Assembly: GCF_030846775.1 (NCBI RefSeq) | Contig: NZ_CP132910.1 | Coordinates: forward strand, 282,001-346,000 | Source of the DNA: Geothrix sp. 21YS21S-2 | GTDB lineage: Bacteria; Acidobacteriota; Holophagae; Holophagales; Holophagaceae | Direction: 5' to 3' | Length of the DNA: 64,000 nt | In this document: piece after piece, positions 12,174 through 24,388 of the stretch | How the letters are laid out: every line of letters begins with the position of its first letter | Position numbering within the stretch: the stretch's first letter is position 1 | The notes under the pieces: generated by a model | What the model was told of the DNA's origin: nothing | Database searches by the model: none | Seen by the model: the letters and a program-made list of their open reading frames with translations, nothing else | Translations under genes and position numbers: made by a program

Positions 12174-12258
12174 ATTGGCGGTTGTGTCTCAATCGCAGAA
12201 GGGGTATCGTCGATCGCCTGGGATCCCAAGGGAATCTGCCCAGCCTCCGGAGGTGCCT

Positions 12259-14544
12259 GTGTCCCAGGAAGCCAAGACCCTCTCCCCGTGGTGGAGGATC
12301 GCCGTCCTGCTGGTGATGATCGCGGGCTTCAGCCTGCTGAGCCTCGTCACCGTCAAGACCTACGCGGGGGCTCCGCCCATTCCGGACCGGGTGGTGGACG
12401 CCACGGGACGCGTGCTCTTCACGGGCGACGACATCCGGGCGGGGCAGGGGGTGTTCTTCAAGTACGGCCTCATGGAGCACGGGACGCTGTGGGGCCACGG
12501 GGCCTACCTGGGGCCGGACTACTCGGCGGAGTACCTCCACCGCCTTGCCGAGATCGGCCGGGACACCCTGGCCCAGGAGCGTTTCGGGAAGAACTTCGCC
12601 GAGGTGCCGCCGGACGCCGCCCCCGGCCTGGGGGAGCGCCTGAAGCTCATGCTGCGCCAGAACCGCTACGACGGGGGAACCCTCGTCTTCACGGCTCCGG
12701 AGGCGCGGGCCCACGAGGTCCAGGCCGGGGAATGGCGCGACTACTTCTCGGGCCTGGACCCCGCCCCGGGCCTGCCAGCGGGCTACATCCGGAACGACGC
12801 GGAGCTGCGCCGGCTCAACGACTTCTTCGCCTGGGCCGCCTGGGCCACCGTGGCCACCCGGCCCGGCACGGACTACTCCTACACCAACAACTGGCCCTAC
12901 GAACCCCTGGTGGGCAACCTCCCCACCAGCTCGGCCTACCTGTGGAGCGCCATGAGCCTCGTGACGCTCCTGGGCGGGCTCGGGCTCATCCTCTTCGTCT
13001 TCGGGAAGTTCGACTACCTGGGCTGGGGCGGCGGCGCGGGCAGCCACCGCGGGTCGGCCGGGGCGCTCCAGGGCTGGGTCCCCACGTCCAGCCAGAGGGC
13101 CCTGGGGCTCTACTTCCTGGTGGTGATGCTGCTCTTCCTGGGGCAGGCCGCCCTGGGCGGCGCCATCGCCCACTACCGGGTGGAGCCCGGCGCCTTCTAC
13201 GGCTTCGACCTGGCCAAGTACCTGCCCTACACCCTGGCGCGCACCTGGCACCTGCAGCTGGCCATCTTCTGGATCGCCACCTCGTGGGTGGCCGGAGGCC
13301 TCTTCCTGGCGCCCCTGGTGGGCGGCGCGGAGCCCCGCGGGCAGAAGACGGGCGTCCTGGTCCTGCTGGCGGCCCTGGCCCTGGTGGTCTTCGGCAGCCT
13401 GGGCGGGGAGTACCTGGGCATCAACGACCGGCTGGGAAGCCTCTGGTTCTGGTTCGGCCACCAGGGCAGCGAGTACCTGGACCTGGGGCGCTTCTGGCAG
13501 GTGCTGCTGGCGGCGGGACTCATCTTCTGGCTGTGGCTCATGTTCCGGGCCCTGCGGCCCGCCATGGGCCGGGGGAAGGGGGAGCTGCCCAGCCTCTTCC
13601 TGGTGGCGGCGGTGGCCATCCCCCTCTTCTACGTGCCGGCGCTCTTCTACGGGCCCCACACCAACTTCGCCGTGATCGACAACTGGCGCTTCTGGATCAT
13701 CCATCTCTGGGTGGAGGGCTTCTTCGAACTGTTCGCCACCGTCATGGTCGCGGTGATGTTCGTCCAGATGGGCCTCATCAAGGAGCTGGCCGCCACGCGG
13801 CTGGTGTACCTCGACGGCATCCTGTACCTGGTCGGGGGCATCGTGGGCACCGGGCACCACTGGTACTTCACCGGCCAGGGCACCCTGAACATGGGCCTCG
13901 CGGCATGCTTTTCCGCCCTGGAGGTGGTGCCCCTCACCCTGCTCACCCTGGACGCCTGGGACTTCATCCGGCTCCAGGACACGGTCTGCGACGACTGCGA
14001 CCTGCCCCTGGGCTCGAAGCACGTGTGGCCCATCCGCTTCCTCATCGCCGTGGGCGTTTGGAACTTCGTGGGGGCCGGAGTCTTCGGGTTCCTCATCAAC
14101 CTTCCCATCGTCTCCTACTTCGAGGTGGGCACCACCCTCACGCCCAACCACGGCCACGCGGCCATGTTCGGGGTCTTCGGCATGCTGGCCCTGGCGGTGG
14201 TGTTCTTCTGCCTGCGCTCCCTGCGCTCGGACCGCGCCTGGGCCCGCGTCGAGGGGCTGATCCGGGTGGGCTTCTGGGGGCTGAACGTGGGCCTGGCCCT
14301 CATGATCCTCCTGGACCTGTTCCCCGCAGGCGTGCTGCAGCTGTGGGACTCCCTGGCCAACGGCTACTGGCACGCGCGCAGGCTCACCTACCTCATGTCC
14401 GGCACCTTCCACACCCTGGAATGGGTACGCATCGTCGCGGACATGACCTTCCTGCTGGCGGGCGCGCTGCCCCTGGCCTGGGCCACGCTCAGGCTGGTCC
14501 TGGACCGGGAGCCGGCCTCGCCGCGATCGCCTTCACGGCCATGA
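12259..14544 (+). CDS. norB: quinol-dependent nitric oxide reductase (qNOR, single-subunit NorB/NorZ)
   Basis: A 761-residue membrane enzyme reducing two NO to N2O with electrons from quinol. After the first membrane helix comes the periplasmic extension typical of qNOR (TYAGAPPIPDRVVD...). The heme-copper oxidase-like core follows with about 13 further helices, including TWHLQLAIFW and GIVGTGHHWYF with metal/heme His ligands. GTG 12259 was chosen because GGAGG stands five bases upstream and the length then fits the family; the ATG-less extension to 12175 lacks a ribosome site. No norC or nitrite reductase is nearby, so NO detoxification or partial denitrification is likely. The 3' end overlaps the convergent response regulator by 56 nt. 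Confidence 0.92.
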   Translation: MSQEAKTLSPWWRIAVLLVMIAGFSLLSLVTVKTYAGAPPIPDRVVDATGRVLFTGDDIRAGQGVFFKYGLMEHGTLWGHGAYLGPDYSAEYLHRLAEIGRDTLAQERFGKNFAEVPPDAAPGLGERLKLMLRQNRYDGGTLVFTAPEARAHEVQAGEWRDYFSGLDPAPGLPAGYIRNDAELRRLNDFFAWAAWATVATRPGTDYSYTNNWPYEPLVGNLPTSSAYLWSAMSLVTLLGGLGLILFVFGKFDYLGWGGGAGSHRGSAGALQGWVPTSSQRALGLYFLVVMLLFLGQAALGGAIAHYRVEPGAFYGFDLAKYLPYTLARTWHLQLAIFWIATSWVAGGLFLAPLVGGAEPRGQKTGVLVLLAALALVVFGSLGGEYLGINDRLGSLWFWFGHQGSEYLDLGRFWQVLLAAGLIFWLWLMFRALRPAMGRGKGELPSLFLVAAVAIPLFYVPALFYGPHTNFAVIDNWRFWIIHLWVEGFFELFATVMVAVMFVQMGLIKELAATRLVYLDGILYLVGGIVGTGHHWYFTGQGTLNMGLAACFSALEVVPLTLLTLDAWDFIRLQDTVCDDCDLPLGSKHVWPIRFLIAVGVWNFVGAGVFGFLINLPIVSYFEVGTTLTPNHGHAAMFGVFGMLALAVVFFCLRSLRSDRAWARVEGLIRVGFWGLNVGLALMILLDLFPAGVLQLWDSLANGYWHARRLTYLMSGTFHTLEWVRIVADMTFLLAGALPLAWATLRLVLDREPASPRSPSRP

Positions 14545-14905: not shown

Positions 14906-15604
14906 ATGGACGATTCCGCAAAGGCCTGGGAGCATCAGGGGACCATGGACTACCGCACGACCAAAGCCTTCGACCATTTCCTGTCCGGCCTCGGGCAGGA
15001 GGCGCGGGCCGAAGCCCTGCGCGCCCTGGCCAGGGAGGTCGAGGACCTGCGGAGCCTGCCCCCGGGCGCCGGGCGGGCCCGGGAGGTCCACCGGCGCGTG
15101 GACGCGGCCCAGGCCCGCTTCGCGGCCCTGAAGCCGGAGGTCGTCGCCCAGGTGCGCTGCGGCCGGGGCTGCGCCCACTGCTGCCGGCTGTGGGTGGGCG
15201 TCACCCGGGACGAGGCGGAGCTTCTGGCCGCCTCCGGCGCCGGGCCCGATCCCTTCCGGCTGGAAGCCCAGCGGCACTGGACCTCCCCGTCGGACTTCAT
15301 CGGAAGGCCTCGGGAGGAGGCCTCCTGCGTCTTCCTGGGGCCGGACGGCGCCTGCGGCGTCTACCCGGACCGGCCCGCCATCTGCCGGGCCGTCCTCGTG
15401 GCCAGCGATCCGGAGTTCTGCCGCGGCGGCGACCTCGCCACCCGCATCACGGCGGTGATCAACCCCTACGCGGAGGTGGTGGTGTCGGCGGCGCTGACCC
15501 TGGACGCGGAGGGAGACCCGCCGCCGCCGGCGGGCCGGCATCTGGCCCACGCCCTTGAACGCGGTAGGGGGAGCTCTCCTGCACCACCGCCACCAGGCTC
15601 CTGA
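14906..15604 (+). CDS. YkgJ-family cysteine-cluster protein
   Basis: About 232 residues. The CxxxCxxCC-type motif CGRGCAHCC is near residue 93, with further cysteines in ASCVFLG, GACGVYPDRPAICR and FCRG. This is the CxxCxxCC zinc/iron-chelating family (YkgJ). Biochemical role unknown; a metal or Fe-S site is predicted. ATG 14906 lacks a clear ribosome site; ATG 14945 (13 codons later) has AGGGG close upstream and is a real alternative. The Pro-rich last 45 codons overlap the convergent LysR gene by 146 nt. Confidence 0.75.
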   Translation: MDDSAKAWEHQGTMDYRTTKAFDHFLSGLGQEARAEALRALAREVEDLRSLPPGAGRAREVHRRVDAAQARFAALKPEVVAQVRCGRGCAHCCRLWVGVTRDEAELLAASGAGPDPFRLEAQRHWTSPSDFIGRPREEASCVFLGPDGACGVYPDRPAICRAVLVASDPEFCRGGDLATRITAVINPYAEVVVSAALTLDAEGDPPPPAGRHLAHALERGRGSSPAPPPPGS

Positions 15605-16448
15605 GGGCTTCGGACTGGGCGTCCCTGCGGTAGGCGAAGAGCAGGTCCAGCGTTGGCGAGGGGTCCAGGTCGATGGGCCGCGTGACCACGCCCTTTGGCG
15701 CCACTTCGCCCACGTACTCCGAGAAGAAGCAGAACCCCATCCCCGAGGCCACGGCGTTCATGGAGGTCATCAGGCTCTCGGTGACCAGGCCCTTGGCGAA
15801 GGTGACGCCGCCCAGCCGCTCCAGCCGCCCCGTGAGCGCGGCCACCGCGGGGGCGATCTTGTCCGAGATGGACACCAGGGGCATGCGGGTCAGCGCCTCC
15901 AGGGGCACCCGCTCCAGCCTGGCCAGCTCACAGGTCTCGGGGATCACCACGACCACCCGCTCCTGGATGTAGATTTCGGCGACGATGTCGTCGCCCTCGA
16001 TGGGCCCGCGGGTGAAGCCCGCCATGATCTCGCGCCTCTGGAGCGCCAGGACCTGCTCCGGGGCGGTCATGGTGCGCAGCTTGAGGTGGACTTCCGGGGC
16101 CTTGCGCATGAGCCGGGGCAGGAGGTTCGAGAGCACGAGCCCCTCGGGCCCCATGATCATGCCCAGGGCCAGGGTGCCCACCTCGTCCCGGGCGGAGGCG
16201 CGGGCCTCGGCCAGGGCCTCCTCCACGGCGGCCAGGATGTCCCGGGCCGCCGGAAGGAAGGTGCGTCCCGTAGCCGTCAGGGTGAGCCGGTGCTTCTCGC
16301 GCAGGAAAAGCGGGGCTCCGACGATCCCTTCGAGCTGACGGATCTGCTGGCTGAGCGAGGGCTGCGACGTGTGCAACCGCTCGGCGGCCCGGGTCACGTT
16401 CAGCTCCTCTGCGACGGCGACGAAGTAGCGGAGAAGGCGGAATTCCAT
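15459..16448 (-). CDS. LysR-family transcriptional regulator
   Basis: A 329-residue regulator. The N-terminal winged HTH reads MEFRLLRYFVAVAEELNVTRAA...HTSQPSLSQQIRQLE, and an effector-binding LysR_substrate domain follows from about residue 90 (GTLALGMIMGPEGLVLSNLLP). ATG 16448 begins exactly at the conserved helix; the upstream ATG 16517 would add a non-conserved leader. The last 40 residues are Pro/Gly-rich, beyond the usual family end, and overlap the YkgJ gene. It lies just downstream of the acyl-CoA operon on the same strand, so control of that operon is possible but not shown. Confidence 0.88.
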   Translation of the reverse strand: MEFRLLRYFVAVAEELNVTRAAERLHTSQPSLSQQIRQLEGIVGAPLFLREKHRLTLTATGRTFLPAARDILAAVEEALAEARASARDEVGTLALGMIMGPEGLVLSNLLPRLMRKAPEVHLKLRTMTAPEQVLALQRREIMAGFTRGPIEGDDIVAEIYIQERVVVVIPETCELARLERVPLEALTRMPLVSISDKIAPAVAALTGRLERLGGVTFAKGLVTESLMTSMNAVASGMGFCFFSEYVGEVAPKGVVTRPIDLDPSPTLDLLFAYRRDAQSEALRSLVAVVQESSPYRVQGRGPDAGPPAAAGLPPRPGSAPPTPPPPRRG

Positions 16449-16521: not shown

Positions 16522-16965
16522 TTATGAGATCCGGGGCGCCTTGAAGAGCCAGCCGGGGAGCTTCACTTCGGCCACGCCGTCCATGACCACCTCACCGGTC
16601 TGCTTGGTGATGACGGTCGAGATGCGGGCGATGCTCTTGGGCAGGATCTCGATGATGGAGGCGTTCAGGGTGACGGTGTCGCCGATGAAGACGGGCAGCT
16701 TGAAGTTGCAGGTCTGGTTGAGGTACACCGTGCCCACGCCGGGCATGTCCATGCCCAGGACCTTGGAGACGATCCCGAAGAGGATCGCGCCGTGGGCGAT
16801 GCGCTGGCCGAAGCGGCTGGTGGCGGCGACGGCGTCGTCCACGTGGATGGCGTTGTGGTCGCCGCTGAGGTCGGCGAAGGCGCGCACGAGCCTGTCGTCG
16901 ATGACCTGGGAGTAGGTGCAGGCCTGGCCCACTTCAAACACGGGGGCGGCGGTGGTGGTTTCCAT
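16522..16965 (-). CDS. MaoC-like (R)-specific enoyl-CoA hydratase
   Basis: A 147-residue hotdog-fold hydratase. The MaoC motif is clear: FADLSGDHNAIHVDDAVA...FGQRIAHG, with the catalytic Asp and His of the D-x4-H pair, then GIVSKVLGMDMPGVGTVY. Relatives hydrate trans-2-enoyl-CoA to (R)-3-hydroxyacyl-CoA. ATG 16965 has AAGGAG about eight bases upstream; the longer upstream reading is a shadow of fixX. It is the last gene of the acyl-CoA dehydrogenase/FixABCX operon, 29 bp after fixX, consistent with acting on the enoyl-CoA product or substrate of the dehydrogenases. Confidence 0.88.
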   Translation of the reverse strand: METTTAAPVFEVGQACTYSQVIDDRLVRAFADLSGDHNAIHVDDAVAATSRFGQRIAHGAILFGIVSKVLGMDMPGVGTVYLNQTCNFKLPVFIGDTVTLNASIIEILPKSIARISTVITKQTGEVVMDGVAEVKLPGWLFKAPRIS

Positions 16966-16994
16966 GATGTCTCTCCTTGGGAAGTGCGGGGGGT

Positions 16995-17285
16995 TCAACT
17001 GCAGCGGAAGGTGATTCCGAACGATGCCCGCGGGTAGGTCCAGCTGGTGACGCCCTTGTCCTTGCATACTACGCGACAGGTGCCGCATTCCAGGCAGCCC
17101 GCGTAGTCGAAGGCCACCTGCCCGTCCTTGAGCCGGTAGCAGCGCGCGGGACAGACGGTGACGCAGGGCCGCGGTGCGCACACTGCGCACCGGGCCTTCT
17201 CCACGATGATGTGGGGATTGCCCTCGTCCACGTTGAAGCGGTCGAGGCCGAGAAGCTCTTCGGGACTGAGTCGCTTGATGCTCAT
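16995..17285 (-). CDS. fixX: FixX/YdiT ferredoxin-like protein
   Basis: A 96-residue ferredoxin-like subunit. Two cysteine groups are visible, CAVCAPRPCVTVC (residues about 33-45) and CLECGTCRVVC (64-74), enough for two [4Fe-4S] clusters. In FixABCX it partners FixC in carrying electrons toward quinone. ATG 17285 overlaps the fixC stop by four bases (ATGA), so the pair is translationally coupled. Confidence 0.9.
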   Translation of the reverse strand: MSIKRLSPEELLGLDRFNVDEGNPHIIVEKARCAVCAPRPCVTVCPARCYRLKDGQVAFDYAGCLECGTCRVVCKDKGVTSWTYPRASFGITFRCS

Positions 17286-18556
17286 ACGCTGCGATACCCC
17301 TTCCAGGCGTCGGCCGCCAGCTGCCTGAACGTGACGTTCTCCTTCACCACGGAAAGGAGCTTCTTCAGCATCGGCGGCGGCACCTTGCCGTCCACGTTGA
17401 ACAGGAAGCCCAGGGCCTGGTTGGCCAGGGCGGGATACTCCCTGAAGATCCGGGAGATGCCGAAGATGCCGTGGAATTCCGCGTAGGCCCGCATGGTGGG
17501 CAGGAGCGCGAGCTCCTCCAGTTCCGCCATGTAGGCCGGGCCCGTGGGGGTCCCTTCCTTGAGGATGGCCCGGGCCGCGGCGAGGCCGCTGACGATGGCC
17601 AGGTCCATGCCCCGGATCACGAGGCCCGTGTTGATGCCGAACTGGGCCGCGTCGCCGATGACCAGCATCCCCTCGCGGTGGAGCCGCTTGGGGATGCCGT
17701 GGTAGCCGATCTCCGGCACCAGGTGCGCGCCGTACTCGACGCTGGTGCCGCCGTCGATGAGAGCGGCGATTCCGGGCTGTTCCTTGAAGTCCTGGAAGAT
17801 CTCCTGGATCTGGCGGCCGTTGGCGGCGGCCTGCTCCGGGTTGAAGACGATGCCCAGCGACAGGCTGCCCTTGTTGGTGTAGAGGAACCCGCCTCCGGAA
17901 ATGCCCTCGGTGCAGCCGATGGCCACCCGGGCCACGCCCTCCTCGTTCGAGACGCCGAACCGGGCGTTGATGACGGAGTCGGGGAGCTCGATGGTCTCCT
18001 TGACGCCCACGCCCACGGCGCGGGCCTCCACGTCCGGGAAGAGCCCGGCCTGCTGGGCCAGGAGGGAATTGACGCCGTCGGCGGCGACCACCACGCCCGC
18101 GCGCATCTCGTCCTCGCCGACGCGGATGCCCACGATGCGGCCGTTCTCCTCGATGAGGCCGTCCACGCGCATGCCGCTGGCGAACACGGCGCCGGCGCCT
18201 TCGGCCTCGGAGGCGAACCATTCGTCCAGGGACGCGCGCACCACGGAATGGGACTGGGGAACGCCCTCGCCCCAGGCGGGGTCGGCGGCGTCGAGGGTGG
18301 TGGCGCGCCGGCCCTCCACCAGCATCACCTGCTCGCGCACGATCCGGCGCTGCAGGGGCGCCCGCAGGTACATGCCGGGCTCCAGGAGCTCCAGGGCGTA
18401 GGTGTAGAGCCGCCCTCCGCTCACGTTCTTGGCGCCTGCGGAGTCGCCCCGCTCGAGGAGGAGGACGTTCTTCCCCTCCCGGGCCAGGGCGTAGGCGCAG
18501 GCCGAACCCGCGGGGCCGGCGCCCGCCACGATCACGTCAAAGGAGTCGTCGGACAT
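17282..18556 (-). CDS. fixC: FixC/YdiS-type flavoprotein oxidoreductase (ETF-quinone oxidoreductase family)
   Basis: A 424-residue FAD protein. The N-terminal dinucleotide-binding motif is VIVAGAGPAGSACAYALA with LLLERG after it, and the second FAD motif MLVIGDAAQFGINTGLVIRGMD is near residue 300. The family (FixC, and ETF-QO in mitochondria) receives electrons from ETF and delivers them to quinone together with FixX. The order EtfB-EtfA-FixC-FixX in one operon shows a complete FixABCX set. Start ATG 18556 lies three bases from the end of the ETF alpha gene. Confidence 0.92.
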   Translation of the reverse strand: MSDDSFDVIVAGAGPAGSACAYALAREGKNVLLLERGDSAGAKNVSGGRLYTYALELLEPGMYLRAPLQRRIVREQVMLVEGRRATTLDAADPAWGEGVPQSHSVVRASLDEWFASEAEGAGAVFASGMRVDGLIEENGRIVGIRVGEDEMRAGVVVAADGVNSLLAQQAGLFPDVEARAVGVGVKETIELPDSVINARFGVSNEEGVARVAIGCTEGISGGGFLYTNKGSLSLGIVFNPEQAAANGRQIQEIFQDFKEQPGIAALIDGGTSVEYGAHLVPEIGYHGIPKRLHREGMLVIGDAAQFGINTGLVIRGMDLAIVSGLAAARAILKEGTPTGPAYMAELEELALLPTMRAYAEFHGIFGISRIFREYPALANQALGFLFNVDGKVPPPMLKKLLSVVKENVTFRQLAADAWKGYRSV

Positions 18557-18559
18557 GGC

Positions 18560-19477
18560 TCAGGCCTTGAGGGCCGCTGTCAGCAGCGGCAGCACGGTGT
18601 AGAGGTCGCCCACGATGCCGTAGTCCGCGGCCTCGAAGATGGGCGCCCGCTCATCCTTGTTGATGGCGACGATGATCTTGGATTCCCGGCAGCCGACCAT
18701 GTGCTGCACCTGCCCCGAGAGGCCGGCGGCCACGTAGAGCTCGGGCTTCACGGTCTGGCCGCTGATGCCGATGTAGCGCTCCACGGGGAGCCAGTGCTCG
18801 TCCTCGGCGATGCCGCGGGTGCAGGCCAGCTCGGCCTTGAGCGCCCCGGCCAGGTCCACGGCCAGGTCCAGGTCGGCCCGGGCGCCGAAGCCCCGGCCCA
18901 CCGAGACCAGGCGCGTGGCGGCGCCGATGTCCACGCCCTCGCCGGCCACGGGGGTCGAGGAGAGCACTTCGACCCGGGCATCGGCGGCGACGTCGATCGT
19001 CTCCACCGCGGCCGCGGCCCCGGCTGGCGCCGGGGGCAGGAAGGTGCGCTGGGGGACGGTGGCGACGGCGGGAAGCGCCAGGGATTCCTCGCACACCGCC
19101 AGGCCCCCGTAGAGGATGCGGGTGGTCTCCAGCCGGCCGCCTTCGGCGCGCAGCGTCTTGGCGTCGGTGGTGAGCCCGGCCTTGAGGGCCGCGGCCACGT
19201 GCGCGGCGAGGTGCTTGCCGCGCAGGGTGCCGCCCACCAGGACGACGCCTGCCTGGGCCACCAGGGAGGCCACGGCCGGAGCCAGGGCCTCGGGGGTGCC
19301 GGCGCCCTTGAGGACGATGACGCGGTCGGCGCCGAGCCCGGCGAGCGCCTGCGCCTCGGCCGGAGACTGGGTGAGGGCCACGAGGGGCTGCCCCAGGGCC
19401 GCCTTCAGCTCCAGGCCGGGCGTCAGCAGCTGCCGCGCCAGCGCGGGATCTTCCGAGAAAACGAAAATTCCTGCCAT
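18560..19477 (-). CDS. fixB: electron transfer flavoprotein alpha subunit (FixB/EtfA/YdiR)
   Basis: A 305-residue ETF alpha subunit. The C-terminal FAD domain holds LVSVGRGFGARADLDLA, RGIAEDEHWLPVERYIGISGQTVKPELYVAAG and IIVAINKDERAPIFEAADYG, the usual signature. The N-terminal Rossmann-like domain spans about residues 1-170. With FixA it forms the flavoprotein heterodimer that takes electrons from acyl-CoA dehydrogenase or NADH. It starts ten bases after fixA ends. Confidence 0.92.
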   Translation of the reverse strand: MAGIFVFSEDPALARQLLTPGLELKAALGQPLVALTQSPAEAQALAGLGADRVIVLKGAGTPEALAPAVASLVAQAGVVLVGGTLRGKHLAAHVAAALKAGLTTDAKTLRAEGGRLETTRILYGGLAVCEESLALPAVATVPQRTFLPPAPAGAAAAVETIDVAADARVEVLSSTPVAGEGVDIGAATRLVSVGRGFGARADLDLAVDLAGALKAELACTRGIAEDEHWLPVERYIGISGQTVKPELYVAAGLSGQVQHMVGCRESKIIVAINKDERAPIFEAADYGIVGDLYTVLPLLTAALKA

Positions 19478-19487
19478 GGGGGGCTCC

Positions 19488-20264
19488 TTACAGGCCTTCG
19501 GCTTTGAGGCTGGCGACGAGCTGGGCGACGTTGGCCGCCGCGTCGCTCTCTTTGTAGACGATGTTCCGGCGGTTCATCAGGAAGCCCTTGGGGGTCCTGC
19601 GAACGGCCCGGGGCGCCAGGTCCTCGGGGGCGAGGCCGAGGCTGGACATGGGCAGCTCCTCGCTGGGCTTCTTCGAGGCTCCCAGCACCTGCTTGAGGGA
19701 GGGGATGCGCGGCTTGTTCATCTCGCCGAGCACGCTCACCACCGCGGGGCCGGCGACCCGGACCTCCTCGGTGCAGTCGGGGAGCTTGCGGGTGGCCGTG
19801 AGCACCCCGTCCGCCCAGGTCATCTTCTGGACGAAGGTGACGCAGGGCAGGCCGAGCAGGGCCGCGAGGCGGGCCGGAGTCTGCTGGAAGAACATGTCGG
19901 AGCTGCCCTCGCCGCAGAGGATCAGGTCGTAGGGCCCGGTCCTGCGGATGGCGGCGGCCAGGACGTTGGCGACCACGAAGGCGTCGGCGCCCTCCGCCGA
20001 GGCGTCCCCGATCCAGTTGAGCTTGTTGGGCCCGCGGGAGAGGACGTCCTTCACGGACAGCTTGAGGGCCTGGGTGCCGTAGGACAGGGCGTCCACGTTG
20101 CCCCCCTGGGCCTCCACCAGGAGGCTGGCGGCCTCGATGGCGTTGCGGTCGAAATCGCTGATCTTGCCCTTGGCGCGGGAGGTGTCGAGGCTGAGGTCGT
20201 CGGGCCGGACCTTGATGTCCTGCTCGTCGAGGACCCACTTGTAGCAGACGAGAATGTTCGGCAT
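19488..20264 (-). CDS. fixA: electron transfer flavoprotein beta subunit (FixA/EtfB/YdiQ)
   Basis: A 258-residue ETF beta subunit. It shows the conserved N-terminus ILVCYKWVLDEQDIKV, the DRNAIEAASLLVEA stretch and VLGEMNKPRIPSLKQVLGASKKP near residue 175. In bifurcating FixA/EtfB proteins the beta subunit binds the extra FAD that splits electrons from NADH; the residues needed could not be judged by eye. It starts ten bases after the acyl-CoA dehydrogenase gene. Confidence 0.92.
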   Translation of the reverse strand: MPNILVCYKWVLDEQDIKVRPDDLSLDTSRAKGKISDFDRNAIEAASLLVEAQGGNVDALSYGTQALKLSVKDVLSRGPNKLNWIGDASAEGADAFVVANVLAAAIRRTGPYDLILCGEGSSDMFFQQTPARLAALLGLPCVTFVQKMTWADGVLTATRKLPDCTEEVRVAGPAVVSVLGEMNKPRIPSLKQVLGASKKPSEELPMSSLGLAPEDLAPRAVRRTPKGFLMNRRNIVYKESDAAANVAQLVASLKAEGL

Positions 20265-20274
20265 GGCGTTGTCC

Positions 20275-21411
20275 TCAGGCCAGCAGGGCTGCGGCGATGG
20301 TCCCGTCGGGGAACTGGGCGGGGGCTTCCAGCAGGGTGGTGCCGGCGATGTCGCGGAAGAGGCGGGGCAGGGGCATGAACTCGGAGTACCCGAAGCCGCC
20401 TTCCACCTGGACGGTGTCGATCAGGAACCTGTTGCCGAAGCGCGCCAGGAAGGCCTTGACCATGGCGGCCTCGACCAGGAAGGGCTCGCCGGACTCGATG
20501 AGCCCGGCGGCGACCCGCAGGCCCAGGCGGGCCAGGTGGCAATCGGTGGCGGTCTCGGCCAGGAGGGTCTGGATGGCCTGGAGGGCCGCGATGGGCCGGC
20601 CGAACTGGACGCGGGTCTTGGCGTAGGCGGCGGCGTGCTCGACGGCGGCCTGGCCGATGCCCACGGTCTGGGCGGCCTCGGCCACGGAGGCCACGGCCAG
20701 CGTCTCTTCGACCAGGGCCTTGCCGTCGCTGAGCTTGCCCAGCAGGTCGGCGTCCTGGAGGATGACGTTGTCGAAGATCAGGTCGGCCACGGGGCAGCCC
20801 TTCAGGCCCATGGTCTCGGCCGGGACGCCCACGGCCAGGCCGGAGACGCCGGCGGGGACGATGAAGGCGGCCAGGCCCTTGGCTCCCGCGGCGGGATCGA
20901 CGCAGGCCACGACCACGTGGACCTTGGCCACGCCCGCGTTGCGCACGAAGGCCTTGGTGCCCTTGAGCACCCATCCCTCGGGCTGGCGCGTGGCCATGAG
21001 GGCGTCGGGGCCCACGCCGGGGGTGGGGCCGTGCTCGTAGACGGCGAAGGCGCCCAGGGTCTCGCCCGAGGCCAGGGCGGGGAGGTAGGCGCGCTTCTGC
21101 GCGGCGTCGCCCCAGCGGTTGATGGCGTAGGCGGCCACCGCGTGGTTCACGAGGATGGAGGCCGTGGCCGCGCTGGTGCGCGACAGGGTCTCCACCACCT
21201 CCACGAAGCTCACGAAGCCGGCTTCGGCGCCGCCGTGCTCCCCCGGGAGGAAGAGGCCCAGGAAGTCATGGGCGGCCAGCTGCTTCACCGCGTCCGCGGG
21301 GAAGGCGCCGGTGTGGTCCATGTCGACGACGATGGGCTCGAGGTACTCCTTGGCGAACTCGCGGGCGCTCTGCCCGATCAGCTGCTGTTCTTCGGTCAGT
21401 TGGATGCTCAT
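20275..21411 (-). CDS. acyl-CoA dehydrogenase (second of pair)
   Basis: A 378-residue flavoprotein of the acyl-CoA dehydrogenase family, introducing or removing an alpha-beta double bond in acyl-CoA with FAD. The N-terminal helical domain, the middle beta domain and the C-terminal helical domain with EGGFGYSEFMPLPRLFRDI are recognisable. The region where the usual base motif YEGTNQIQ occurs reads differently here (DIAGTTLLEAP), so the catalytic Glu may be displaced or the substrate unusual. Start ATG 21411 shares one base with the stop of the upstream dehydrogenase (TGATG). Two dehydrogenases next to FixABCX suggest a heteromeric complex or different chain lengths. Confidence 0.88.
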   Translation of the reverse strand: MSIQLTEEQQLIGQSAREFAKEYLEPIVVDMDHTGAFPADAVKQLAAHDFLGLFLPGEHGGAEAGFVSFVEVVETLSRTSAATASILVNHAVAAYAINRWGDAAQKRAYLPALASGETLGAFAVYEHGPTPGVGPDALMATRQPEGWVLKGTKAFVRNAGVAKVHVVVACVDPAAGAKGLAAFIVPAGVSGLAVGVPAETMGLKGCPVADLIFDNVILQDADLLGKLSDGKALVEETLAVASVAEAAQTVGIGQAAVEHAAAYAKTRVQFGRPIAALQAIQTLLAETATDCHLARLGLRVAAGLIESGEPFLVEAAMVKAFLARFGNRFLIDTVQVEGGFGYSEFMPLPRLFRDIAGTTLLEAPAQFPDGTIAAALLA

Positions 21412-22568
21412 CAGTTGCCACCTTTCTGGGCCGCGGCGGGTTTGGGGGGCGTCAGGACGGCGCGGGAGATCACGAGGCGCTGGATCTGGTTCGTCCCTTC
21501 GTAGATCTGCATGATCTTGGCGTCGCGCATGAGCTTGGCGATCCCGGAGGTGTAGCCGTAGGCGCCCATGAGCTGCACTGCCTGGGCCGAGATGCGCATG
21601 GCCTTGTCCGCGCAGGAGGTCTTGGTCATGGCGGACTCCACGGAGAAGGGAAGGCCGGCGTCGCGCAGGTTCATGGTGTGGTGAAGCAGCTCGCGGGCTT
21701 CCTCGATCTCGATGCGCATGTCGGCCAGCTTGAACTGCAGGGTCTGGCCGGGCTGGACCTTGGGGTCGGGGAACTTCGCCTGCAGGTGCTTGACGCACTC
21801 GTCCAGGGTGCGCTGGGCGATGCCCAGGGCCAGGGCGGCGATGGCGGGACGGGCCAGGTCCAGGGTCTTCATGGCCACCTTCATGCCTTCGCCTTCCGCG
21901 CCCAGGAGGTTGGCGGCGGGGATGCGCACGTCCTTGAAGAGGAGCTCGACCGTGTTGGAGGAGCGGATGCCCAGCTTGTGGTCCACGGTGCCGATGGTGA
22001 AGCCCGGCAGGCCCTTCTCCACGATGAAGGCGGAGAGGCCCTTCATGCCCTTGGCGGGGTCGGTGAGGGCGTAGATCACGAACACGGTGGCGTAGCCGCC
22101 GTTGGTGATCCAGCACTTGCTGCCGTTGAGGACGTAGCTGTCGCCGTCCTTGATGGCGGTGGTCTTGCCGTTGCCGGCGTCGGAGCCGGCATTGGGCTCG
22201 GTGAGGCCGAAGGAGCCGATCTCGCCGCGCACCATGGGGTCGAAGAACCGCTTCTTCTGCTCCTCGTTGCCGGCCACCAGGACCGAGTCCATGGCCAGGA
22301 CGCTGGCGGCGAGCGTGGTGCCCATGCCAGCGCAGCCGTAGCCCCAGGCTTCCAGGATCAGGGCCTGGGTATGGGCGTCGTAGTCCAGGCCGCCGAACGC
22401 CTTCGGCACGGCCATGGCGAAGATCTTGCTGTCGCGGGCCGACTCCAGGAGGTACGGGTGGAACTCGCCGGTCTTGTCGTACCTGGCGGCGTTGGGGATG
22501 ATCTCCCTGGCGACGAAGGCTTTCGTCTCCTCGAGGATCTGGCGTTTCTCAGGGGTGAGGATGCTCAT
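21411..22568 (-). CDS. acyl-CoA dehydrogenase (first of pair)
   Basis: A 385-residue acyl-CoA dehydrogenase. Visible signatures include FGLTEPNAGSDAGN (FAD/substrate loop, about residue 130), WITNGGYATVFVIYA and, at the C-terminus, LMGAYGYTSG...MQIYEGTNQIQRL, where the Glu is the likely catalytic base. It transfers electrons to the ETF encoded downstream in the same operon. E. coli YdiO is the positional counterpart. ATG 22568 has AAGGTGG upstream. Confidence 0.92.
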   Translation of the reverse strand: MSILTPEKRQILEETKAFVAREIIPNAARYDKTGEFHPYLLESARDSKIFAMAVPKAFGGLDYDAHTQALILEAWGYGCAGMGTTLAASVLAMDSVLVAGNEEQKKRFFDPMVRGEIGSFGLTEPNAGSDAGNGKTTAIKDGDSYVLNGSKCWITNGGYATVFVIYALTDPAKGMKGLSAFIVEKGLPGFTIGTVDHKLGIRSSNTVELLFKDVRIPAANLLGAEGEGMKVAMKTLDLARPAIAALALGIAQRTLDECVKHLQAKFPDPKVQPGQTLQFKLADMRIEIEEARELLHHTMNLRDAGLPFSVESAMTKTSCADKAMRISAQAVQLMGAYGYTSGIAKLMRDAKIMQIYEGTNQIQRLVISRAVLTPPKPAAAQKGGN

Positions 22569-22586
22569 TCTGGATCCACCTTTCCT

Positions 22587-24167
22587 TTATGCGAAGGCCG
22601 GTTCCGGCCGGGTTTCGAGGTGCGCGCGCAGTCCGCCCCACGTTGCGTGGAAGAGCTCGGCTGGCATCAGCTTGAGATTGGGTGATACGTCGGGAGTAAA
22701 GTCCATCTGGCCGAGGATGTCCCGCTCCAGGTCCGCGCCCGGGGCGATCTCCGTGAGGGTGAGCACGCCGCCCACCAGTTCGAAGACGGCGCGCTCGGAG
22801 ACGTAGAGCACGGACTGGCCCGTCGAGGCCGCGTAGGCGCCGCTGAAGGTCACCTGCTCCACGTCCCTCACGAACTTCCGGCTGCGGCCCTCCCGGTGGA
22901 TCACGAGGCGGCCCGCGTCGACGCCCACCTCCAGGCCCCCGGCGGTGAAGCTGCTGCAGAAGACCACCTTCCGGGTCGCCTGGGAGATGTTGATGAACCC
23001 GCCGCAGCCCACGCAGCGCCCGCTGAACTTGCTGACGTTCACGTTGCCGTGGCGGTCCACTTCGCCTGCGCCCAGGAAGGCCTGGTCCAGGCCGCCGCCG
23101 TCGTACCAGTCGAACATCGCCTGGTGCTCGATGAAGACGTCGGCGTTGAAGGACATGGCGAAGTTCCGGCCGCCGGCGGGAACCCCGCCGATGGCGCCGA
23201 GTTCCGTGGTGAGGGTGAGCAGGTCGGAGGCGCCCTCCTGGGCGGCGACGATGGCCACGCCGTCGGGAACGCCGATGCCCAGGTTGACGACGGAGCCGGG
23301 AGTCAGCTCCATGGCCGCGCGGCGGGCGATGACGAGACGCTCGTCCGGGGGCAGCTCGGGGATGGCGTCCAGGGGGATCCGCAGGTCGCCGGAGAAGGCG
23401 GGGTTCCTGTAGGTGCCCGCGGACTGCCAGTGGTGCTCGGGTTGGGCCACCACGAGGTGGTCCACCAGCACCCCCGGCACGCGCACGCTCTTGGGGTGCA
23501 GGGTGCCACGGGGCACCACGCGCTCCACCTGGGCGATCACGATGCCGCCGCTGTTGCGGGCGGCCTGGGCCAGGGGCAGGGCCTCCATGAGGACGCCCTC
23601 GTCCTCCATGGTGAGGTTGCCGTCCTCGTCGGCGGTGGACGCGCGGATGATCGCCACGTCCACGGGGATGGAGGGGTAGAGCAGCCACTCCTCCCCCTCG
23701 AACCGGATGACCTTCACTCGGTCCCGGGTGGTGGCCTTGTTCATCTTCCCGCCCTCCAGGCGGGGATCCACGAACGTGCCCAGGCCGATCTTCGACACGA
23801 CCCCCGGGTGGTGGGCGGCGACCTCCCGCCACAGCTGGCAGAGCACGCCCTGGGGCAGGCAGTGGCCCTCCATCTCGCCGTCGATGATCATGCGGGCCAT
23901 GTCCGGGGAGAGGCCCGTGTGGCCCCCGATCCAGCGCCCGATGAGGCCCTTGTGGGCGAAGTGGTTCGTGCCCTTGTCCTTCCAGTTCCCGATGCCCGTC
24001 GAGTGGACCAGGGTGAGGTCCGCGGGGTGGCCGGAGGCCAGGAAGCTCGCCTCGATGCCCAGGGCCACCGCTTCGGGCCACCCCGACAGGGTGATCGCGC
24101 TGGCGCCCAGGGTCGCGCCATCGCGGATGAGCGCCGCCACTTGATCTGCCTGGATGACCTTGGTCAT
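22587..24167 (-). CDS. acyl-CoA:carboxylate CoA-transferase (YdiF/propionate CoA-transferase-like)
   Basis: A 526-residue fused alpha-beta class I CoA-transferase. The N-terminal half starts MTKVIQADQVAALI and contains GIGNWKDKGTNHFA; the C-terminal half has NLGIGVPDGVA and LTTELGAIGG, where Glu is the expected nucleophile forming the glutamyl-CoA thioester. Family members (YdiF, Pct, acetate/acetoacetate transferases) exchange CoA between short-chain acids. ATG 24167 fits the family start; an upstream in-frame extension to 24350 is not conserved. It is the first gene of the operon and would activate the acid that the dehydrogenases and FixABCX process. Confidence 0.9.
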   Translation of the reverse strand: MTKVIQADQVAALIRDGATLGASAITLSGWPEAVALGIEASFLASGHPADLTLVHSTGIGNWKDKGTNHFAHKGLIGRWIGGHTGLSPDMARMIIDGEMEGHCLPQGVLCQLWREVAAHHPGVVSKIGLGTFVDPRLEGGKMNKATTRDRVKVIRFEGEEWLLYPSIPVDVAIIRASTADEDGNLTMEDEGVLMEALPLAQAARNSGGIVIAQVERVVPRGTLHPKSVRVPGVLVDHLVVAQPEHHWQSAGTYRNPAFSGDLRIPLDAIPELPPDERLVIARRAAMELTPGSVVNLGIGVPDGVAIVAAQEGASDLLTLTTELGAIGGVPAGGRNFAMSFNADVFIEHQAMFDWYDGGGLDQAFLGAGEVDRHGNVNVSKFSGRCVGCGGFINISQATRKVVFCSSFTAGGLEVGVDAGRLVIHREGRSRKFVRDVEQVTFSGAYAASTGQSVLYVSERAVFELVGGVLTLTEIAPGADLERDILGQMDFTPDVSPNLKLMPAELFHATWGGLRAHLETRPEPAFA

Positions 24168-24365
24168 GGGATGGGTTCCTCGGGTCGGGTTTCGGGACAG
24201 GCCCCCGGCGGGCCCTTCACCGCCGGGAATCCCGGTCGCCGTAGGCCCTGAAGGGTGGGGCGGTGAGAAGCGGAGAAGTGAATCGGTTCTCACGGACTGC
24301 ATGTTGAAGTTATATCCTGACCAATAGGTCCTCAAATACTTTGTTTCCATGAAACCAGACGCAAA

Positions 24366-24388
24366 ACGTCTAAGACGTGCAACGTCTT
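24366..24388. promoter_or_regulatory. nested inverted repeats, probable operator between CoA-transferase and flavin reductase genes
   Basis: Three alternating half-sites build two perfect palindromes: ACGTCT-A-AGACGT (24366-24378) and AAGACGT-GCA-ACGTCTT (24372-24388). They sit in the 276-bp divergent intergenic region 24168-24443, in the only AT-rich part, about 200 bp from the CoA-transferase start and 56 bp from the reductase start. The symmetry suggests a dimeric repressor or activator site. The cognate regulator is unknown. Confidence 0.5.

Follow-up and report, generated by a model that had tools for sequence, protein, structure and literature searches.

We identified an eight-gene operon in Geothrix sp. 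21YS21S-2, on the minus strand (24167-16522) of a 64,000-nucleotide stretch of its genome (NZ_CP132910.1, positions 282,001 to 346,000; here the window, whose own numbering is used throughout), that is a variant of the ydi/cai-type FixABCX module. Among its distinguishing elements are an apparently split pair of acyl-CoA dehydrogenases (ACADs) and a MaoC hydratase. We are fairly confident that the two ACADs together form one heteromeric enzyme served by a non-bifurcating electron transfer flavoprotein (ETF). With somewhat less assurance, we think it likely that the operon as a whole specifies a non-bifurcating, menaquinone-linked module for the interconversion of short-chain acyl-CoA, 2-enoyl-CoA, and (R)-3-hydroxyacyl-CoA. 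The E. coli-type FixABCX proteins are known from the ydi and cai operons, but it is poorly established what they take electrons from, what they pass them to, and in which direction they run. In the present operon they are tied to what appears to be a single ACAD divided between two complementary subunits, which we found described for steroid degradation only.

A FixABCX operon related to ydi and cai

Based on Pfam, NCBIfam, and Protein Data Bank (PDB) searches, the genes encode, in order, a YdiF-type CoA-transferase, ACAD1, ACAD2, FixA, FixB, FixC, FixX, and MaoC, and are followed by a LysR gene. A first-pass annotation of the same DNA had described eight genes in a row with tiny gaps, and all eight are present, with its outer coordinates exact. 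The successive gaps are 18, -1, 10, 10, 3, -4, and 29 nucleotides (range, -4 to 29), no minus-strand terminator-like site was found within the eight-gene stretch, and all eight genes are under purifying selection (dN/dS of 0.11 to 0.29).

From this gene content, and from the FixA motif losses described below, both of which are read directly from the sequence, we infer how the products might work together. The YdiF-type transferase would swap CoA between incoming and outgoing acids, the two ACADs would act on the CoA esters only in combination, as a heteromer in which each pair has a single intact FAD site, and MaoC would add or remove water. FixA and FixB would serve as a dedicated ETF, carrying electrons between the ACAD heteromer and the FixC-FixX oxidoreductase and hence the quinone pool.

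The resemblance to the ydi genes, which the first-pass annotation had also pointed out, is borne out by sequence identity: the transferase (526 amino acids [aa], 22587-24167; PF01144) is 43% identical to E. coli YdiF, with whose catalytic Glu its own aligns, and FixA, FixB, FixC, and FixX are 38 to 46% identical to YdiQ, YdiR, YdiS, and YdiT. Like the E. coli and Salmonella ydiF-ydiO-ydiQRST(-fadK/ydiD) genes, the window operon combines a YdiF-type transferase, an ACAD, and homologs of the E. coli-type fixABCX genes in the same order, with a regulator gene nearby. It differs in having two half-degenerate ACADs in place of the single YdiO, a MaoC hydratase and no ligase where ydi has an acyl-CoA ligase (FadK/YdiD), and a two-cluster FixX. 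Like the E. coli caiTABCDE and fixABCX operons, which are adjacent and divergent, it brings together a CoA-transferase, a hydratase, an enoyl-CoA reductase, and FixABCX and has neither a thiolase nor a 3-hydroxyacyl-CoA dehydrogenase. Here, however, a class I YdiF-type transferase stands in for CaiB, a MaoC-type hydratase (PF01575) for the crotonase CaiD, and a predicted heteromeric ACAD for CaiA, and there is no counterpart of CaiT.

Two acyl-CoA dehydrogenases with complementary motifs

ACAD1 (385 aa, 21411-22568) and ACAD2 (378 aa, 20275-21411) each contain all three ACAD domains recognized by Pfam and are 28% identical to one another. To compare their FAD sites, motifs were scored by alignment with Clostridioides difficile Bcd in 11 ortholog pairs and in 31 control ACADs from relatives. 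Every ACAD1 ortholog (11/11) keeps LTEPxAGSD, WITNG, and IYEGTNQ, lacks the R-x-QFG-[RK]-P arm, and carries a deletion of two to three residues following the GG motif. Conversely, the 11 ACAD2 orthologs without exception retain R[VI]QFG[RK]P and QVEGGFG (RVQFGRP and QVEGGFGY in the window protein) and have lost the LTEP, WIT, and EGT motifs; in 6 of the 11, Asp occupies the position of the catalytic Glu. The losses are thus reciprocal in 11/11 pairs, whereas both motif sets are present, with small variations, in 31/31 controls.

In ACAD structures, the flavin ring is held by the LTEP/WIT/EGT set of one subunit, a set that also provides the catalytic base, while the arm set (RxQFG and QVEGGFG) touches the FAD diphosphate from the neighboring subunit. 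Because the two sets come from different subunits, an ACAD1-ACAD2 dimer would have one complete site and one doubly broken site. ACAD1 would supply the flavin ring site, the substrate site, and the catalytic Glu, and ACAD2 would contribute the FAD-diphosphate arm. The complementarity itself is visible in the alignments, and from it we infer the assembly: the two proteins are probably complementary halves of one obligate heteromeric enzyme. That each is instead a homomeric dehydrogenase in its own right, with a substrate of its own, would agree with their low mutual identity and with the presence of all three domains in each, but it is improbable, given that each has lost an FAD-site motif set kept by every control and that the losses are reciprocal in every pair, as in known heterotetramers. 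The first-pass annotation had treated the second dehydrogenase as an additional activity that extends the set; the gene is indeed there, but its product is most likely the missing half of the first.

Heterotetrameric alpha2beta2 ACADs are known from steroid catabolism (PMC6678751) and served as our positive control. The arm is absent from ChsE4 (4X28_A) and from two actinobacterial proteins of the alpha type, which belong to the Tsukamurella and Rhodococcus plasmid pairs; the proteins encoded beside these two have the arm but not the ring motifs. At a Streptomyces locus, an adjacent beta subunit was looked for and none was seen, and the Tsukamurella and Rhodococcus pairs took its place in the comparison. 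The window pair resembles the steroid enzymes (ChsE4-ChsE5, also named FadE26-FadE27, and FadE28-FadE29) in its tandem genes and in having the flavin-ring motifs on one subunit and the FAD-diphosphate arm on the other, and it differs from them in its short-chain acid context and its FixABCX partner. ACAD1 is 44% identical to Bcd, a butyryl-CoA dehydrogenase, and 24% identical to ChsE4. The trees neither join nor separate the window pair and the steroid ACADs, and approximately unbiased tests reject neither a common nor a separate origin of the split.

FixABCX and electron bifurcation

All four subunits of the Fix complex are encoded: FixA (ETF beta type, 258 aa, 19488-20264), FixB (ETF alpha type, 305 aa, 18560-19477; Pfam and PDB matches), FixC (an ETF:quinone oxidoreductase-like flavoprotein, 424 aa, 17282-18556; identified by NCBIfam, PDB search, and the FixC tree), and the ferredoxin-like FixX (96 aa, 16995-17285; NCBIfam and PDB search). 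A complete set of this kind can bifurcate, oxidizing NADH and sending one electron to quinone and the other to ferredoxin, as the first-pass annotation had proposed for this operon. Mutagenesis of the bifurcating Ldh-EtfAB has shown that the motifs DGDTAQVGP, at the bifurcating FAD (b-FAD), and RxFxG, for NAD, matter (PMC9232219). The window FixA reads SSDMFFQQTP in place of the former, and DASAEGAD where the NADH motif reads DRxFxGAD. Both motifs are kept in Sinorhizobium meliloti FixA, LctB, CarD, and C. difficile EtfB (the b-FAD motif with at most one change), and both are missing in the window FixA family, E. coli FixA, YdiQ, and the canonical ETF 1O94. The SPT motif in the C-terminal arm of FixA is not conserved as aligned, in a region where the alignment is gapped.

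The absence of the b-FAD and NADH motifs from FixA leaves bifurcation unsupported, and the first-pass annotation had itself staked its proposal on the b-FAD residues that are missing on alignment. The phylogeny it suggested points the same way, since the FixC proteins of nif-linked and bifurcating references separate from the window clade (support of 94/97). In addition, no match to the nitrogenase family PF00148 was found in the genome, so a nif link for this FixABCX was rejected. Three features speak for bifurcation, namely, the presence of all four subunits, the two-cluster cysteine pattern of FixX, and an Arg in FixB. That Arg, which belongs to RPxFGG near flavin N5 and is kept in the window as RILYGG, has been reported in all ETF groups and is therefore nondiscriminating (PMC10734219). 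As for FixX, its eight cysteines are arranged as in EtfX of the bifurcating Thermotoga maritima complex and suffice for two [4Fe-4S] clusters. Taking both sides together, we regard bifurcation as very improbable. FixABCX would instead be a dedicated ETF with its ETF:quinone oxidoreductase, similar to the bifurcating FixABCX/EtfABCX complexes of Azotobacter and Thermotoga in its four subunits and FixX pattern but distinct from them in its FixA motifs.

The first cysteine set of FixX is missing from E. coli FixX/YdiT and from S. meliloti FixX. The window operon pairs a two-set FixX with a FixA that lacks the b-FAD motif, while S. meliloti pairs a one-set FixX with a FixA that keeps it.

Direction, substrate, and distribution

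The suggestion in the first-pass annotation of a possibly reversible module for short-chain acids is supported by these findings, and the gene context allows some discussion of which way it would run. We moderately favor the reductive direction, driven by menaquinol, over short-chain acid oxidation, and give it about an even chance; the module would then respire 3-hydroxybutyrate, crotonate, or another 3-hydroxy or 2-enoic acid, in analogy to the reduction of carnitine by E. coli cai-fix. More tentatively, we propose an anaerobic respiration dedicated to a short-chain 3-hydroxy acid, for instance (R)-3-hydroxybutyrate, the monomer of the storage polymer polyhydroxybutyrate (PHB). Menaquinol would reduce it to the saturated acid by way of CoA transfer, a dehydration specific for the (R) form, and reduction of the enoyl-CoA by a heteromeric enzyme that receives its electrons from the non-bifurcating FixABCX.

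Several observations agree with the reductive direction. MaoC (147 aa, 16522-16965; PF01575) is closest in a PDB search to solved (R)-specific enoyl-CoA hydratases (top matches, 5CPG and 1IQ6), and the operon contains neither a 3-hydroxyacyl-CoA dehydrogenase nor a thiolase. A separate fadB-fadA-ACAD-etfBA cluster lies elsewhere in the genome (L040, 1542-12274), together with a convergent second YdiF-like CoA-transferase that is 52% identical to the one in the window, and a separate ETF:quinone oxidoreductase-like protein is also encoded elsewhere. A GntP permease gene follows MaoC in five relatives (L047, L048, L049, L051, and L052), and homologs of this permease, about 70% identical, lie beside a 3-hydroxybutyrate dehydrogenase gene in Azospirillum and Cupriavidus. 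In the window genome, no close match to a 3-hydroxybutyrate dehydrogenase was found (best, 38%), nor was a PhaC. Furthermore, E. coli fixAB is needed for carnitine reduction (PMC2131755), and the E0' of crotonyl-CoA/butyryl-CoA is -10 mV compared with approximately -70 mV for menaquinone (PMC5861303), so menaquinol-driven reduction would be favorable.

Other observations weigh against the reductive proposal. A search of the window genome at an E value cutoff of 1e-10 gave no such permease, and the congener loci lack it as well, so that the clue to the substrate comes from relatives. Nine short-chain dehydrogenase/reductase proteins of the genome are 31 to 38% identical to a 3-hydroxybutyrate dehydrogenase, and an (R)-dehydrogenase is thus possible. 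The choice of menaquinone as the quinone comes from general knowledge of the phylum. Finally, Salmonella ydiQRSTD, the closest known operon, has been reported for anaerobic butyrate oxidation (PMC9530198), and it is because E. coli fix serves carnitine reduction while the Salmonella genes are reported to serve oxidation that our preference is only moderate.

An oxidative use is accordingly a real possibility, though one we put below even chances. A butyrate-like acid would be activated by the transferase and oxidized by the ACAD pair, with electrons passing via FixABCX to quinone and on to Fe(III) or another acceptor, and the product would take up water through MaoC before enzymes encoded elsewhere complete the pathway. 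Beyond the Salmonella precedent, it is consistent with Fe(III) reduction by Mesoterricola, a genus of soil Acidobacteriota (PMC13064192), and with the 3-hydroxyacyl-CoA dehydrogenase and thiolase encoded elsewhere in the genome. Against it, the 3-hydroxyacyl-CoA dehydrogenases found belong to PF02737, whose members act on the (S) form, whereas MaoC belongs with the (R)-hydratases. The genome already has a complete beta-oxidation cluster that includes a transferase and an ETF, electrons would have to move uphill from about -10 to about -70 mV, and the permease in relatives is of the 3-hydroxybutyrate type. If the 3-hydroxy acid reading is true, the soil Acidobacteriota that carry the operon would respire anaerobically with PHB monomers or enoates as the electron acceptors.

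Polyhydroxyalkanoate synthesis, considered as a sink for (R)-3-hydroxyacyl-CoA, was rejected, as no PhaC_N match was found in the genome. The separate beta-oxidation cluster adjoins a gene for a sigma-54 activator. The position held by the GntP permease in other relatives is taken at L043 (14349-15695), a locus from the same genome as L046, by a metabolite/H+ symporter whose top equivalog match, below cutoff, is a shikimate transporter.

The gene order is conserved beyond chance: of five congeners, four share it (the genome of the other has a completeness of 81%), and it recurs on metagenome-assembled genome (MAG) contigs. Six such contigs (L047 to L052), three of them from one bin, carry the same gene set at 64 to 83% identity to the window; contig ends cut two of these loci, leaving L049 without the transferase and L050 broken inside MaoC. 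The contig scan used two FixC peptide patterns only and probably missed distant operons in other phyla. A Holophagaceae MAG (L045) encodes a FixC 96% identical to that of the window. Searches of other genomes in the family matched ACAD2 to generic ACADs only (33 to 38%). FixC matches occurred in 13 of 396 Acidobacteriota genomes, and the same operon outside the genus was rejected for this phylum, as the loci examined there hold other gene sets.

The MAG bin CAILAZ01 (bin-1745) contains three divergent operon copies (L048, L050, and L051), which are either paralogs with different substrates or the sign of a mixed bin. The L049 contig, with 64 to 78% identity to the window, has been assigned to a MAG of the alphaproteobacterium Telmatospirillum, possibly through misbinning or transfer. 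In L047, a gene for a [NiFe] hydrogenase small subunit (1079-2191) is located upstream of both the LysR gene and the operon and would suit respiration driven by H2.

The LysR-family regulator gene, absent from the first-pass annotation, lies downstream on the same strand (15459-16448). Its product is HcaR/AlsR-like (Pfam and NCBIfam), and it is close by in most related loci. Upstream of the CoA-transferase gene, tandem palindromes (24357-24388; AAGACGT-TGC-ACGTCTT and AGACG-TTTTG-CGTCT) form a candidate operator, possibly of the LysR protein, and similar sites occur upstream in four congeners. Similar sites also occur elsewhere in the genome, and the palindrome was rejected as a unique mark of the regulon. 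Near the operon, the window also encodes a NorB-type nitric oxide reductase with a fused cytochrome c-like domain (12175-14544; PF22085 and PF00115), and the host genome as a whole is a single contig of 5.25 Mb.

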